The position numbers were made by a program, and so were the translations under genes. A stretch of DNA of 32,822 nt from Bacteroidales bacterium (lineage in GTDB: Bacteria > Bacteroidota > Bacteroidia > Bacteroidales > UBA932): contig JAFYLU010000085.1 in the NCBI GenBank assembly GCA_017550025.1, positions 1 through 32,822 of the forward strand, written 5' to 3'. The notes under the pieces are model-generated. The model saw nothing but the letters and a program-made list of their open reading frames with translations, searched no databases and was not told the origin of the DNA. Below are positions 23,568 through 29,292 of this stretch, piece after piece (position 1 is the first letter of the stretch; each line of letters begins with the position of its first letter).

Positions 23568-24578
23568 ATGATTAGAGAAGTAAAATTCGAAAGCCAGGAT
23601 CGTCGTATCAACCAGATCCTTGCAGTTCTCAACGAGAACGGTATCGCTTCTATCGAGGAGGCAAACGCAATCTGCGATCAGTATGGTCTTGATCCTTATA
23701 TGACATGTGAGGAGACTCAGCCAATCTGCTTCGAGAACGCAAAGTGGGCTTATGTAGTAGGTTGCGCAATCGCAATCAAGAAGGGCTGCAAGAACGCAGC
23801 TGAGGCAGCTGAGGCTATCGGTCTCGGTCTTCAGGCATTCTGTATCCCTGGTTCAGTAGCTGACGACCGTAAGGTTGGTATCGGCCACGGTAACCTCGCA
23901 GCAATGCTCCTCCGCGAGGAGACAAAGTGCTTCGCATTCCTCGCAGGTCACGAGTCATTCGCAGCAGCAGAAGGTGCTATCAAGATCGCAGCTAAGGCTG
24001 ACAAGGTTCGTAAGGAGCCTCTCCGCGTAATCCTTAACGGTCTCGGTAAGGATGCTGCTCAGATCATCGCACGTATCAATGGTTTCACATATGTACAGAC
24101 TGAGTTCGACTACTTCACCGGTGAGCTCAAGGAAGTACGCCGCATCGCATACAGCGACGGTCCACGCGCTAAGGTTAACTGCTATGGTGCTGACGACGTT
24201 CGCGAGGGTGTAGCTATCATGTGGCACGAGGGTGTTGACGTATCAATCACTGGTAACTCAACTAACCCTACACGTTTCCAGCACCCAACAGCTGGTACTT
24301 ACAAGAAGGAGCGTGTCCTCGCAGGCAAGCCATACTTCTCAGTAGCATCAGGCGGTGGTACAGGTCGTACACTTCACCCAGACAACATGGCTGCCGGTCC
24401 AGCTTCATACGGTATGACCGACACTATGGGTCGTATGCACTCTGACGCACAGTTCGCAGGTTCTTCATCAGTTCCAGCACACGTTGAGATGATGGGATTC
24501 CTCGGCATCGGTAACAACCCTATGGTAGGTTGTACTGTTGCTGTGGCTGTGGACGTGGCGACTGCGCTTAATAAGTAA
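23568..24578 (+). CDS. GGGtGRT protein
   Basis: 336 residues of the family named after its motif, here SGGGTGRTLHPD (G262-T268). The biochemical function is not established as far as I know. The family co-occurs with the NifU-like scaffold upstream, so an iron-sulfur or redox role is inferred. Codon bias is strong throughout until the end. Of the first 324 codons none is GTG or GCG, yet the last 12 (AVAVDVATALNK) hold three GTG and two GCG. This looks like a tail acquired by recombination. The switch falls just after an inverted repeat (24514-24519 with 24528-24533, 8-base spacer), and two degenerate copies of the 3' end lie downstream at 29084-29147 and 29207-29236. The protein ending itself looks normal. 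Confidence 0.88.
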   Translation: MIREVKFESQDRRINQILAVLNENGIASIEEANAICDQYGLDPYMTCEETQPICFENAKWAYVVGCAIAIKKGCKNAAEAAEAIGLGLQAFCIPGSVADDRKVGIGHGNLAAMLLREETKCFAFLAGHESFAAAEGAIKIAAKADKVRKEPLRVILNGLGKDAAQIIARINGFTYVQTEFDYFTGELKEVRRIAYSDGPRAKVNCYGADDVREGVAIMWHEGVDVSITGNSTNPTRFQHPTAGTYKKERVLAGKPYFSVASGGGTGRTLHPDNMAAGPASYGMTDTMGRMHSDAQFAGSSSVPAHVEMMGFLGIGNNPMVGCTVAVAVDVATALNK

Positions 24579-24602
24579 GAGATTAAATCTCATATACTTA
24601 CG

Positions 24603-24633
24603 AGAGATACTCCGGTTGGGGTATCTCTTTTTT
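24603..24633 (+). terminator. Rho-independent terminator after the GGGtGRT gene
   Basis: AGAGATAC (24603-24610) pairs with GTATCTCT (24621-24628), followed by a run of six T. If the islet model is right, this terminator arrived with the islet. Confidence 0.85.
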
Positions 24634-24905: not shown

Positions 24906-24914
24906 TATATTTGC
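24906..24914 (+). promoter_or_regulatory. -7 box TATATTTGC for the TIR-LRR pair
   Basis: An exact TAnnTTTG match 21 bases before ATG 24936; no clear -33 TTG at normal spacing. It probably drives both TIR-LRR genes, which are 6 bases apart. Confidence 0.5.
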
Positions 24915-24935
24915 AAGAGATGAATACCATTGAAA

Positions 24936-26945
24936 ATGAAACAGCATAAACGGGATCGCATATTTATTTTATACCACAGCATAAATTCGCATGCTGTTCG
25001 CGCCATATCAAATAGGATAGAACAAGAATTGGGTGAAGCATGCTGTACAAGTGCAGTTCTGGATTTCTCTGAACCTACCAGCTTGGCTGAATACACGCAA
25101 GCATGCGATGTCTTCATCTATGTGTATTCATACATCAACTCTCAACTTGAAAACAAATTTTCGGAAACAGTCAGAAATGTGTTCTCAGAAGCAGAGGAAC
25201 TGAACAAACGCATCATATTGATCACATTAGACGACCCTATCGTCCCGAAATACCTATCCAATCTGTATTATCAGCAGATTACTGATATCAATAACCGCAG
25301 TACAATGCAAGTGCTGTACAGCACGCTAAAGTCAAGGTTAGCTGACATCACCATTCAAAAGCGTAATGCCCTGCCTAGAGAGGAATTCAAAGTCGGTAAT
25401 CTATATTATTGTGCCAGAGCAGACAGGCTTTCTGTAGAGATTACTGATAACGATATTGAAGTCCCCACAGATCTCGTTATTGAAGACACCATTAAGTATG
25501 CCGGCTTCAAATATGACATTGTCGGCATTGGTTCAGGGGCATTCGCAGATAACCCCAACATAAAATCCATTGTATTGCCTGACAGCATTACAGAAATTGC
25601 CACTGACCCATTTTCAGGATGTTCGTCAATTGCCAATATTTCTGTCAACGCAGGTAATCCCGTATATGATAGCCGAGAAGACTGCAATGCGCTGATTGAA
25701 ACAGCGACAAATACGCTCCTGCTTGGTAGCAATAATACAATCATCCCCAATAGCATTACCGTCATTGACGACTATGCATTTACTAATTGCGTCTTGCTTG
25801 AATCAATAGCCATTCCTGCGAATGTTGTAAAAATCAAGAGTAGGTTTGAGGGATGCACATCACTTTCACGCATATCTGTCGATGCGGAAAATCCAGTCTA
25901 TGATAGTCGCGAAAACTGCAATGCAATAATTGAAACAGAAACAAACACTCTGATTGTTGCCTGCAATAATTCGATCGTGCCGAATACGATCAAGGAAATA
26001 TCGCCATGGGCTTTTACATCTTTGAATAATGCAACATCATTGAACGTACCTAAGGGATTAAAGTATATTGATTCTAATATATTTAAGGACTTAACCCATT
26101 TAGAGTCCATCAACATTCCTGATACGGTAGAATGGATAGCACACGATGCATTCAGTGGATGCAGTGCAATATCTCAAATATCAGTAGATCCAAATAATCC
26201 ATATTATGACAGTAGGGATAAATGTAACGCAGTAATACTAACAAGGAATGACTCCCTAATTATAGGGTGCAATACCACTAATATTCCTGACACTGTCAGA
26301 CATATCGGCATTATGGCATTTGGAGCATCTACAATGTTGACTAGAATCAACATTCCAAAAAGCGTGCGAAAATTAGGCTTAAATCCCTTCTATAATTGCA
26401 CTTCACTGGACTCTCTATCAGTAGAAAAGGGTAATCCAACCTACGATAGTAGAGGAGGGTGCAACGCAATAATAGAGTCAAAAACAAACAGTCTTTGTAT
26501 TGCATGCAACACTACAGTCATTCCTGGTAATGTAAAGAAAATCAAAACCTATGCTTTTTACAAATGTCAGAAACTTAAATCTGTGGTCATCCCTGATGGT
26601 GTCACTAAAATTGCCAATGACACTTTTTGCAAATGCAGCGAACTAACAAATGTCAATATACCAGAGAGTATTATGAGTATAGGGAAATATGCTTTCGCGT
26701 GGTGTAAATCACTAACCAATATTACTATTCCCAGCACTGTGAGATATCTTAAGGAAGGAGCATTCTATGGATGTGAATCCTTGAAATCAATATTATTTCT
26801 TGGTGATAATTTTGAAAAAATAGGTGTATCTATATTTACCGGAGCAACTAACCTGGAAGCAATCTATATCCCGAAAGGAGCAAAACATAAATTCCAGAGA
26901 TTCATAAAGGAAGGATTTGAGAAACTTATATTCGAAATAGATTAA
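24936..26945 (+). CDS. TIR-like domain fused to BspA-type leucine-rich repeats (first of pair)
   Basis: 669 residues, no signal peptide, so cytoplasmic. Residues about 7-115 form a TIR-type fold: strand RIFILYHS, an acidic CDVFIYVYS strand and LNKRIILITLDD. Aligned to its neighbour by the shared L-N-K block, the catalytic-Glu position is V82 and the Trp four residues before is Thr, so NAD cleavage is unlikely. A linker with ALPREEFKVGNLYY is shared with the neighbour (ALPKEEFEIDGLIY). From about 190 to the end runs an LRR_5 (BspA) array with units such as AFxxCxxLxxIxIPxxVxxI, including four inserts of the form NPxYDSRxxCNAIIExxTNTL. The ORF can begin at TTG 24930, but ATG 24936 is preferred. 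It is AT-rich relative to the core genes and probably a sensor or regulatory partner. Confidence 0.83.
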   Translation: MKQHKRDRIFILYHSINSHAVRAISNRIEQELGEACCTSAVLDFSEPTSLAEYTQACDVFIYVYSYINSQLENKFSETVRNVFSEAEELNKRIILITLDDPIVPKYLSNLYYQQITDINNRSTMQVLYSTLKSRLADITIQKRNALPREEFKVGNLYYCARADRLSVEITDNDIEVPTDLVIEDTIKYAGFKYDIVGIGSGAFADNPNIKSIVLPDSITEIATDPFSGCSSIANISVNAGNPVYDSREDCNALIETATNTLLLGSNNTIIPNSITVIDDYAFTNCVLLESIAIPANVVKIKSRFEGCTSLSRISVDAENPVYDSRENCNAIIETETNTLIVACNNSIVPNTIKEISPWAFTSLNNATSLNVPKGLKYIDSNIFKDLTHLESINIPDTVEWIAHDAFSGCSAISQISVDPNNPYYDSRDKCNAVILTRNDSLIIGCNTTNIPDTVRHIGIMAFGASTMLTRINIPKSVRKLGLNPFYNCTSLDSLSVEKGNPTYDSRGGCNAIIESKTNSLCIACNTTVIPGNVKKIKTYAFYKCQKLKSVVIPDGVTKIANDTFCKCSELTNVNIPESIMSIGKYAFAWCKSLTNITIPSTVRYLKEGAFYGCESLKSILFLGDNFEKIGVSIFTGATNLEAIYIPKGAKHKFQRFIKEGFEKLIFEID

Positions 26946-26951
26946 TTTAAA

Positions 26952-29012
26952 ATGATAGGCAAACGTATTTTCATATCATATAAGCATAACGACATGAAGC
27001 GTGTTCAATGTATACAATCAGACATTGAACACGCTATAAATGAAAAATGCTGGATTGATCAGGAGGGTATTCCCAGCGATGCAAAGTGGGACTCAGAGAT
27101 TTCACATGCTATCGAGGAATGTGATATATTTTTATTCATAAGATCAAAGGAGCATAACGCAATTCGGGATTTCAAGAATGATTGGACCTTTAAGGAAATC
27201 AATTATGCCAGAAAACTGAATAAAACAATTGAAGTTATCAGCATAGACGATTCTCCTTTCCCTGATTGGCTGATTCCTTATGTTAAATCACCGAAAATCA
27301 TTGAAGTGAACAACCCTGAAATGATGCTGGGCTTATGTAACTTCCTTTCTCATTCCCTGAAAGTTGCTGATGAGAAGAAAAGAGAAGCATTACCCAAAGA
27401 AGAGTTTGAGATTGACGGCTTGATTTATGCTGCAGCAGAGGACCAGGTGTCTGTCGTCCTTATAGGTATATGTGAAAATATGAGGGAGCTGGATACAATA
27501 CATTTTCCTTCTTCCATTACCATCAACGGATATAGGTATGCTGTAACTTCAATCGAAAACGGAGCTTTCGATGAATGTCAATCACTTATATACATTGACA
27601 TACCGGCTAGCGTAACGAAGATTGAGGAATATGCATTCTATAATTGCAGACATCTGAATTCCATTACAATATCGGAGAGGATGTCCTGTATATCAAGTAA
27701 CTCGTTATTCGAATGTAATGCATTAGAATCAATCAAAGTATTGAATAATCCGACATATGACAGTAGGAATAATTGCAATGCAATCATTCACACATCGACA
27801 AACACCCTTATTATAGGATGCAAAAAGACGTTCATTCCTGATGATGTAACATCTATCGAGCAGGACGCCTTTAAGGGCTGTACTACAATTGAAACAGTTG
27901 TTATTCCTAAGAACTTAGTCTCAATTCCTGAAAGTACATTTGATACATGCCAATTTCTGACAAACCTGTCAGTACATGAGGAGAACCCTATCTATGGGAG
28001 TCTAGATGGTGGAAATTCGCTCTTGAACAAAGATACTGACACTCTCATCTTCGTCTGTCACTCAGATAGTATATCTCCAATTGAAATACCGAGTACAATC
28101 AAAAGCATTCGTCAAGAAGCTTTTGATCTCCGTCATTGCAAAATGATATCTGCTATTAGTGTAGATAAAACAAATTCAGTTTATGACAGTCGCAATGACT
28201 GCAATGCCATTATCGAGAGTTCAACAAATACACTGATTCTAGGATGCTCTAGCACTGTCATACCAGAAAGCGTTTCCGTTATCGGGGACAAAGCATTCAA
28301 ACAGGGATTTTTCTATAGTCCGGTAGATTACAACTATGCTGAGAAAAAAGGTCTGTTCTTCGATGATGCATATATTCCCGACAACATCATAAGAATTGGC
28401 GACTTTGCTTTCATGGATTGCGGTAGCAATTATAAATTTGACTTATATCTCTCAGATAAGGTCACTCATATTGGTAAAGGGGCCTTTTATAATTGTGATT
28501 TCATCTTATCACTGAAACTACCCGAAAGTCTTATATACATAGGAGATTATGCATTCTATGGATGTTGGGAAATAGATTCATTGTTCATACCTGCAAACGT
28601 TGCAGAAATTGGAGATCAAATATGTGAGAGCAAGTATCTAGAAAAGATTTCAGTAGATGTCAATAACTGTAATTATGATAGTAGAAACAACTGTAATGCT
28701 ATTATCGAAACCAAAACAGGAACATTGATTCTGGGATGTGCGAAATCCAAGATTCCACATGGAGTAAAGGTTATCGGAAGCAGAGCGTTTGCAGATTGTT
28801 GTCTTACCACTATTACTATTCCCAATAGCGTAGTCAGAGTTTGTGAAGAAGCTTTTGTCGGATGTTTAGAACTGGAAAATATCGAATTTACTGGAACAGT
28901 CGAACAATGGATATCCATTGATAAAAATGTTTCCTGGATGATAGATATACCTGTAGAAAAGATTCGATGCATTGATGGGGATGTTTATATCACAGAAGAT
29001 ACTCTGTCGTAG
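26952..29012 (+). CDS. TIR domain fused to BspA-type leucine-rich repeats (second of pair)
   Basis: 686 residues, no signal peptide. The TIR domain (about 4-125) is well formed: RIFISYKHND at the first strand, CWIDQEGIPSDAKWDSEISHAIEECDIFLFI over the BB-loop region, then W78 and E82 in WTFKEINYA. These align with the W...KE block of NAD-cleaving TIRs such as SARM1. After the ALPKEEFEIDGLIY linker, an LRR_5 array spans about 180-670, again with four inserts of the NPxYDSRxxCNAII type (one degenerate). TIR enzymes cleave NAD+ or make signalling nucleotides, and LRRs usually recognise ligands, so an immune or self-recognition receptor is the main hypothesis. It starts 6 bases after its partner's stop; no other gene shares the operon. 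It lacks the NTPase module of true NLR proteins. Confidence 0.87.
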   Translation: MIGKRIFISYKHNDMKRVQCIQSDIEHAINEKCWIDQEGIPSDAKWDSEISHAIEECDIFLFIRSKEHNAIRDFKNDWTFKEINYARKLNKTIEVISIDDSPFPDWLIPYVKSPKIIEVNNPEMMLGLCNFLSHSLKVADEKKREALPKEEFEIDGLIYAAAEDQVSVVLIGICENMRELDTIHFPSSITINGYRYAVTSIENGAFDECQSLIYIDIPASVTKIEEYAFYNCRHLNSITISERMSCISSNSLFECNALESIKVLNNPTYDSRNNCNAIIHTSTNTLIIGCKKTFIPDDVTSIEQDAFKGCTTIETVVIPKNLVSIPESTFDTCQFLTNLSVHEENPIYGSLDGGNSLLNKDTDTLIFVCHSDSISPIEIPSTIKSIRQEAFDLRHCKMISAISVDKTNSVYDSRNDCNAIIESSTNTLILGCSSTVIPESVSVIGDKAFKQGFFYSPVDYNYAEKKGLFFDDAYIPDNIIRIGDFAFMDCGSNYKFDLYLSDKVTHIGKGAFYNCDFILSLKLPESLIYIGDYAFYGCWEIDSLFIPANVAEIGDQICESKYLEKISVDVNNCNYDSRNNCNAIIETKTGTLILGCAKSKIPHGVKVIGSRAFADCCLTTITIPNSVVRVCEEAFVGCLELENIEFTGTVEQWISIDKNVSWMIDIPVEKIRCIDGDVYITEDTLS

Positions 29013-29070: not shown

Positions 29071-29112
29071 CAAGCAACAGTACAACCCAATGGTAGGTTG
29101 TACTGTTACTTG
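29071..29112. repeat. 17-bp inverted repeat around 8-bp spacer at the right edge of the islet (attR-like)
   Basis: The arms at 29071-29087 and 29096-29112 pair over 17 positions with one mismatch, around CAATGGTA (29088-29095). The inner six bases of each arm (ACAACC and GGTTGT) and 7 of 8 spacer bases match the intact GGGtGRT gene at 24514-24533, where the complementarity stops after 6 bp. The left arm is therefore an inverted copy of relic coding sequence. Confidence 0.7.
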
Positions 29113-29147
29113 TGCGGTTGACGTTGCTTACTGCGCTTAATAAGTAA
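29084..29147 (+). pseudogene. Relic of the GGGtGRT gene 3' end, copy 2
   Basis: It corresponds to the last 21 codons (NPMVG to the stop) of the gene at 23568-24578. Two 18-base blocks are identical, the middle differs, and one extra T before ACTGCGCTT shifts the frame. Its internal codons (GTT, GCT) are closer to the native bias than the present tail of the intact gene, so it may descend from the original end. It is followed by a GGGAGGGA/TCCCTCCC hairpin. Confidence 0.8.
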
Positions 29148-29152
29148 TCACA

Positions 29153-29184
29153 GGGAGGGACGGTTGAAAAACTAAATCCCTCCC
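29153..29184 (+). terminator. Hairpin after relic copy 2
   Basis: GGGAGGGA (29153-29160) pairs with TCCCTCCC (29177-29184) across a 16-base loop. No T run follows. By position it looks like the decayed terminator of relic copy 2. Confidence 0.45.
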
Positions 29185-29206
29185 AACTACGACTGTTCAC
29201 TACGAG

Positions 29207-29236
29207 ACATCCGTGGCGACTGCCCTCAGCAAGTAA
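29207..29236 (+). pseudogene. Relic of the GGGtGRT gene 3' end, copy 3
   Basis: It reads as TSVATALSK then stop, matching the VATALNK ending of the intact gene. GTGGCGACTGC and AAGTAA are identical to it. Only about eight codons remain recognisable. A strong terminator follows at 29256, as expected for the displaced original end of the gene. Confidence 0.6.
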
Positions 29237-29255
29237 TTAACTGCTACTTAATATG

Positions 29256-29292
29256 ATAAGGGAATGGTTTTTCACCATTCCCTTATTTTTTT
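29256..29292 (+). terminator. Strong Rho-independent terminator after relic copy 3
   Basis: A perfect 13-bp stem (29256-29268 with 29274-29286) is followed by a run of seven T. No intact gene reads into it from nearby except the TIR-LRR pair, so it now ends that operon and may once have ended the GGGtGRT operon. Confidence 0.88.

Follow-up and report, generated by a model that had tools for sequence, protein, structure and literature searches.

Does contig JAFYLU010000085.1 of a Bacteroidales genome (assembly GCA_017550025.1) encode an immune receptor in which TIR domains are joined directly to leucine-rich repeats (LRRs)? The window, that is, the whole stretch of 32,822 nucleotides analyzed here, contains two adjacent genes, hereafter P1 and P2, which a first, sequence-only reading had likened to a minimal NLR-like receptor pair. 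Our results confirm the observation behind that proposal and partly support its interpretation. P1 and P2 may constitute a two-gene TIR-LRR immune receptor lacking a nucleoside triphosphatase (NTPase) and carried by a mobile cassette, in which the LRRs would sense, P2 would act on nicotinamide adenine dinucleotide (NAD) and P1 would be a non-catalytic partner, a reading for which we find the case evenly poised.

Both genes are intact open reading frames (ORFs) on the forward strand, 6 bp apart; as read from the ORF, P1 starts with the ATG at 24936 and stops at 26943-26945, with an in-frame TTG at 24930. Pfam scans assigned an LRR_5 array to each protein (5.4e-72 in P1, 1.6e-58 in P2) and a TIR_2 domain to the N-terminus of P2 (1.3e-10; 42.3 bits, cut-off 28), and no TIR was matched in P1 at E 0.01. 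Residues 1-150 of P1 aligned nevertheless with a TIR profile with an hhalign probability of 94% (E 1.2e-7), compared to at most 8.5% for 200 shuffled P1 controls; the profile was composed of 33 rows picked by similarity to the P2 TIR, with P1 and P2 themselves excluded. Moreover, BLASTP aligned the two N-termini directly (3e-18, 28% identity over 157 aa). The TIR fold is predicted for both proteins from sequence profiles, by which the N-terminal domain of P2 is a clear family member and that of P1 a degenerate TIR, detectable solely by sensitive comparison. In both proteins the TIR passes through a short linker straight into the LRR cap, and the Pfam, PADLOC and NCBIfam scans found no NTPase family (NB-ARC, NACHT or STAND) in either of them. 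Thus, the layout described in the sequence-only reading, two genes 6 bp apart that each combine a TIR with a BspA-type LRR array and no NTPase, was borne out by Pfam, hhalign and the ORFs, as was the common ALPxEEF linker. The LRR_5 repeats place both proteins in the BspA type, and the solved-structure relatives of the P1 LRR include 4fs7 and 4gt6.

We then focused our attention on the location of the two proteins. Hydropathy analysis detected neither a signal peptide nor a transmembrane (TM) helix in P1 or P2, the 19-residue maxima being 1.32 and 1.48, respectively, as compared to 2.78 and 2.44 in two related loci (L160 and L200). As neither feature was detected, both proteins are probably cytosolic. 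BspA-type LRR proteins are mostly surface proteins, and secreted bacterial TIRs are the subject of several papers, so P1 and P2 could in principle be BspA-like adhesins with interfering TIR domains acting on animal host cells. However, by hydropathy neither protein has the signal peptide or membrane anchor of a BspA-type surface protein, and the genes belong to a mobile cassette whose insertion hotspot is occupied by defence genes in a relative. The adhesin reading is accordingly disfavoured, and we regard it as highly improbable.

The two TIR domains differ at the catalytic position. In our profile alignment (A3), the column of Glu-82 of P2 coincides with the Glu of the SARM1 motif DWVHKEI, which we take to be the catalytic Glu642. 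P1 has Val-82 in that column by profile and Asn-81 in one MAFFT alignment, and Glu in neither. P2 combines the family match with the putative catalytic Glu, which P1, failing the Pfam TIR match as well, has lost. Glu occupies the catalytic column in 180 of the 194 TIR domains of the fetched loci. Neither this proportion nor the pair count given below (3/25) is a population rate, because the loci were chosen for resemblance to P2 or to TIR_2 and are partly redundant, with duplicate DNA in L135/L162, L109/L163, L110/L168 and L112/L187, and near-identical DNA in L156/L157. Gene calls were simple longest-ORF picks that missed some genes, such as the TIR ORF of L155.

Regarding the origin of the pair, P1 and P2 are old tandem paralogues, because they can be aligned along their whole length, and their TIR parts have diverged most: in the full-length alignment, identity is 25% in the TIR, 39% in the linker and cap, and 41% in the LRR. 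The TIRs are indeed very different, as the sequence-only reading stated, but they are homologous along with the remaining length. Its conclusion that the genes form a functional pair rather than a duplication is therefore unsupported as worded, and a history in which unrelated TIRs were brought together was rejected. The common NPxYDSR inserts are present in both proteins (four in P1, three plus one altered in P2), but YDSRNNCNAIIETQTNTL occurs twice in L044, a BspA fragment that begins much like a signal peptide; as this fragment has the NPxYDSR...CNAII inserts too, they are a generic BspA feature and were rejected as a mark of the pair. In a tree of TIR domains, P2 grouped with the Bacteroidales TIRs of L155-L161, apart from 12 others, with support of 94/94, a fork that falls below the star of the tool and whose bootstrap has not yet settled. 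P1 fell on the P2 side with a branch of 8.2, compared to 3.4 for P2, and its long branch is such that its position cannot be placed on these sequences. Six P2-type TIRs have 52 invariant columns in common, of which P2 keeps 35 and P1 keeps 19. A hidden Markov model of "dead" TIRs, built from a mix of three unlike sequences, was given no weight.

To what extent, then, does a Glu-less TIR next to a Glu-bearing one recur? Defining pairs as adjacent same-strand TIR genes with a gap below 300 bp (n = 25), we found a first TIR without Glu in three: the window (V), locus L085 of genome G245, from the same genus (Q), and locus L169 of RUG11937 (Q). In all three, a Glu-bearing TIR opens the second gene, and the two genes match in the kind of module they carry, an LRR array in the window and a FISUMP-like part in L085 and L169; at these two loci, an additional Glu-less TIR is present in the second gene. 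Every TIR scored in the remaining 22 pairs has Glu. The FISUMP call is based on a Pfam match of 22.6 bits (cut-off 33.9) in one L085 gene, and on the motif as judged by eye in the other three genes.

The surroundings of these and related genes supply observations of their own. The L085/L153 cluster (G245, contig C19) comprises genes for an AAA-trypsin protein, a zinc-ribbon protein, a vWA protein and a PEGA protein, four BspA LRR genes, and the dead/live TIR pair with its FISUMP-like parts and WG repeats; the four LRR genes lie around the TIR pair, on the opposite strand. Locus L154 of genome G1140 (contig C81, 22493-24741) resembles a split version of TIR plus LRR: the only LRR_5 gene found there at E 1e-5, itself cut by the contig end, finishes 48 bp before a double-TIR gene. 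These arrangements favour the view that LRR and TIR genes work together in the genus, and the one in G1140 is the more telling because BspA genes are common in some genomes, G245 included.

A search of genome contigs for P2-type TIRs returned 504 pattern matches and 133 relatives, of which 80 were kept; a stricter scan of the same kind of records found none, and the P2-type TIRs came from the broader one. LRR similarity accompanies the TIR in four of the 80, namely L159, L200, L229 and L175, so that the combination of TIR and LRR is not unique to the window. L159 (3009-4460, rumen Bacteroidales RUG11067) is a single TIR-LRR gene of 484 aa and the nearest such relative found; L200 and L229 are alike, with a TM stretch separating the TIR from the LRR, and the LRR similarity of L175 is weak. 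The same order, TIR-TM-LRR, with the TM stretch judged by eye, was seen in L109 (G540). Elsewhere, the fusion partner of the P2-type TIR is a set of Sel1 repeats in L161 (by Pfam) and a FISUMP-like part in L160 (by eye); in L155 and L156 the TIR stands by itself. Within the family, the P2 TIR was found in 29 of 299 genomes, its own included, and no LRR similarity was found at the best-match loci (with flanks of about 1.5 kb) of the other 28. Counts from the order-level search are lower limits ("at least"), since at most seven candidates were scored per genome, and wider regions were examined for part of the 46 TIR matches of the genus. Neither the P1 nor the P2 TIR matched any plasmid record, and the P2 TIR, the one searched there, matched no phage record; full-length P2 matched plasmids and phages from residue 77 onwards only, and the one record matched from that residue encodes no TIR. 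Four scans of viral contigs gave a single weak TIR (L088). In addition, macro-TIR genes (359 aa) lie upstream of P2-type TIR genes in L156-L158, directly so in L158, and L156, the one of them on which Pfam was run, has an nSTAND-WD40 gene and a RhuM/PDC-S05 gene nearby. Locus L121, from a phylum-level genome (G893), contains four overlapping tandem TIR genes, with TPR matches in the three scanned with Pfam.

These relatives bear on the possibility that only P2 matters, that is, that it works as a one-protein sensor-effector like L159, with P1 as a decayed duplicate, a decoy or an LRR-only helper. L159 is a single gene whose TIR belongs to the P2 side of the tree, the P1 branch is more than twice as long as that of P2, and the TIR of P1 has diverged more than its LRR. 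Still, P1 remains an intact frame of 669 codons with a full LRR array, and dead/live TIR pairs exist at two other loci; we therefore consider this explanation possible, if doubtful.

The genomic context of the pair was investigated as well (Table 1). P1 and P2 form an AT-rich cassette of 4.6 kb lying between direct repeats of the 3' end of a GGGtGRT-family gene; their guanine-cytosine (GC) content is 37.7%, compared to 51.6% for the GGGtGRT gene, and no integrase gene was found between the repeats. The segment immediately after the second copy (29148-29191) is the flank that adjoins GGGtGRT in G1050, where the gene leads directly into it, as a site without the pair. G1056 has another copy of the 3' end about 18.1 kb further along (92 bp, 95.7%), after which, as judged by eye, comes the same flank; the intervening stretch begins with a tyrosine recombinase and has a GC content of 39.0%, compared to 51.7% beyond it. 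A second copy was also found 1.4 kb downstream in G1081 (80 bp, 95%). Moreover, in all five relatives compared, blastn similarity to the window ends at the stop codon of GGGtGRT or no more than 20 bp from it, and the genes on the other side are conserved (SDH-UvrB-NifU-like-GGGtGRT in G1056; UvrB-NifU-like-GGGtGRT in L265, L268, L269 and L271). A recombinase lies within 500 bp downstream of GGGtGRT in three of 13 relatives with downstream DNA (G1056, G222 and G1082), two of which 13 (G288 and G1067) are on contigs that end within 1 kb. The Arm-DNA-bind_5 matches listed for 13 genomes (that of the window and 12 relatives) number 39 and include these three GGGtGRT sites, so this gene attracts such elements far above its share. 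Overall, the 3' end of GGGtGRT is an integration hotspot in the genus.

Table 1. Positions of the features of the P1-P2 region in the window.
Feature	Position	Strand	Remark
P1	24936..26945	+	669 aa; degenerate TIR-like domain (~aa 1-140), linker, BspA-type LRR array
P2	26952..29012	+	686 aa; canonical TIR domain (~aa 3-140), linker, BspA-type LRR array
P1 codon 82 (Val)	25179..25181	+	in the profile column of the TIR NADase catalytic Glu
P2 codon 82 (Glu)	27195..27197	+	in DWTFKEINYA; aligned with the Glu of SARM1 DWVHKEI
GGGtGRT-family gene	23568..24578	+	3' end is the integration site
Left direct repeat	24514..24578	+	GGGtGRT 3' end; left cassette junction
Right direct repeat	29082..29147	+	second GGGtGRT 3'-end copy; right cassette junction; 56/66 identical, E 7e-17
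Third partial repeat	29212..29236	+	GGGtGRT 3' end, 21/25
TATATTTG	24906..24913	+	like a Bacteroidota -7 box, 22 bp 5' of the P1 ATG; weak
Terminator-like hairpin	24602..24629	+	within the cassette, just 3' of GGGtGRT; weak alone
Terminator-like hairpin	29255..29287	+	3' of the P1-P2 pair; weak alone

Smaller features complete the description of the site. The third partial repeat carries the variant CAGCAAGTAA, like G1070, and because of this resemblance it may reflect insertions that came from different donors and were stacked at the site. The likeness of TATATTTG to a -7 box is weak and refers to what we take to be the Bacteroidota consensus, and the two terminator-like hairpins compare to 2.6 expected in the region. 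The other hotspot loci are L266, L268, L274 and L279. A second GGGtGRT copy, 98% identical, lies on another, small contig of the same genome (L272, contig C107) and perhaps stems from a related strain that was binned with it, the assembly being 84% complete with 6.4% contamination. The PADLOC matches of the UvrB gene reflect cross-matching between helicases.

The immune reading fits the hotspot by analogy with G1082, a relative from the same genus, which holds there a recombinase, AbiL/Rlo-like genes and a near full-length GajA (1006 bits) with GajB (310 bits). Hotspot cargo in relatives is mixed, which would also suit a cassette with another role, such as plasmid exclusion or stress signalling, in which the TIRs are scaffolds and not enzymes. 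A Glu at the equivalent position is, according to PMC7075850, common among NADase TIR groups, yet activity is not always tracked by its presence. Against such a role, the Glu is kept in the P2 TIR, and relatives of that TIR lie near macro-TIR genes and, once, an nSTAND gene, so that we deem it very unlikely.

If P1 and P2 do act as an immune receptor, both would stay in the cytosol, where the BspA-type LRR solenoids would bind an invader-derived or damage-derived ligand, and ligand binding would bring the two proteins together. The P2 TIR, with its intact Glu, would then consume NAD+ or make an NAD-derived signal, and either NAD+ loss or the signal would halt the infected cell. The TIR of P1, being non-catalytic, would act as partner in a dimer or filament of TIR domains and there gate or complete the active site of P2. 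We infer phage defence and NAD+ cleavage from the protein family, the site and the neighbouring genes of relatives; ligand sensing and P1-P2 assembly are likewise predictions from sequence. There is a precedent in SPARTA, in which, according to PMC10474274, active and inactive TIR units sit inside one NADase assembly. More tentatively still, and with the balance tilted to the negative, the window could represent a two-protein, NTPase-less class in which a Glu-less and a Glu-bearing TIR protein with a shared sensor module would have to assemble in order to build one composite NAD-cleaving site. The modules would be swapped between LRR and FISUMP-like parts (as in G245 and RUG11937), and the LRR form would be an integrase-less cassette at the GGGtGRT attachment (att) site.

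Several findings weigh against an immune receptor pair. The weakest link is the role of P1: it may be needed as a partner, or it may be a duplicate in decay that simply carries a degenerating TIR. Among the 299 family genomes the P1 TIR was found in its own only, which leaves the pairing without evidence of selection. The sequence-only reading had reasoned that single, scattered and never paired homologues would refute it, and the results go halfway there: the nearest TIR-LRR relative found is a single gene, and no second TIR-LRR pair was found among the family genomes and the 80 contig relatives, although the dead/live pairs of L085 and L169 do exist. No pairwise similarity was seen between the dead TIR of P1 and that of G245, and for this reason the dead TIRs of different pairs may have independent origins. 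It had also asked whether defence genes lie close by: none was recognized beside the pair among the eight window proteins scanned with PADLOC, but Gabija genes occupy the same site in G1082. As to the cassette, no far repeat was found in the 15 kb around GGGtGRT of G1082, nor a second repeat in about 57 kb from G107 and about 36 kb from G1070. The cargo elsewhere also includes housekeeping-like genes (by eye) and, in G107 (L269), SrfB and Virul_Fac (SrfC-like) genes some 4-10 kb downstream of GGGtGRT. Finally, the usual surface location of BspA proteins, already mentioned, counts on the same side.

Should the receptor reading hold, P1-P2 would represent a TIR receptor in bacteria that senses through LRRs and lacks an NTPase, and would offer a natural means of testing whether TIR enzymes can be controlled by pairing a dead with a live copy. 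It would imply that LRR sensing, TIR clustering and nucleotide switching, tied together in plant TIR-NB-LRR (TNL) proteins, are separable. Moreover, the GGGtGRT 3' end could be mined for further defence genes in the genus. No bacterial TIR-LRR protein without an NTPase was found among the literature matches listed, a weak sign of absence as most subscription papers lay outside the scope, nor in passages from PMC7075850, PMC9092222, PMC10907252, PMC8195603 and PMC11249213.

How, then, does the pair compare with known systems? Thoeris (ThsB), CBASS TIR proteins and SPARTA share with it a TIR with the catalytic Glu, but P1 and P2 have no recognized ThsA, CD-NTase or Ago partner, and their LRR sensor is covalently attached. 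A Thoeris-like scheme, in which P2 makes an NAD-derived signal for an unlinked effector and P1 binds or regulates that signal, draws on the best defence-family matches of P2, which are to ThsB models (PADLOC, 17 bits) and to a type III Thoeris model (NCBIfam ThcB4, 27.5 against a cut-off of 220). These matches are weak, however, and no ThsA-type match was found among the window proteins scanned (eight with PADLOC, 20 with NCBIfam), the genome not having been searched for an unlinked effector; such a scheme seems improbable to us. The bNACHT and Avs/STAND proteins likewise would unite sensor repeats and a toxic effector in one cytosolic protein; P1 and P2 have the C-terminal repeats (LRR_5) and lack the family-defining NTPase between effector and repeats. 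Plant TNLs also have an N-terminal TIR and a C-terminal LRR, and their executor/sensor pairs are encoded by adjacent genes, one of which may be without activity, but P1 and P2 lack the NB-ARC/NACHT/STAND switch, their LRRs are of the BspA type, and homology is seen for the TIR only. Closer to hand, L159 resembles them in its TIR (42% identical over about 119 aa), its BspA LRR_5 array and the lack of an NTPase match or a strong hydrophobic segment, but it has no adjoining degenerate partner and no YDSR-type inserts in its sequence. L085 and L169 share the arrangement of two adjacent genes with a common module, the Glu-less TIR first and the Glu-bearing one second, and differ in the FISUMP-like module, the extra Glu-less TIR in the second gene and, in L085, the WG repeats. 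Altogether, we rate P1-P2 as a variant among TIR immune sensors.

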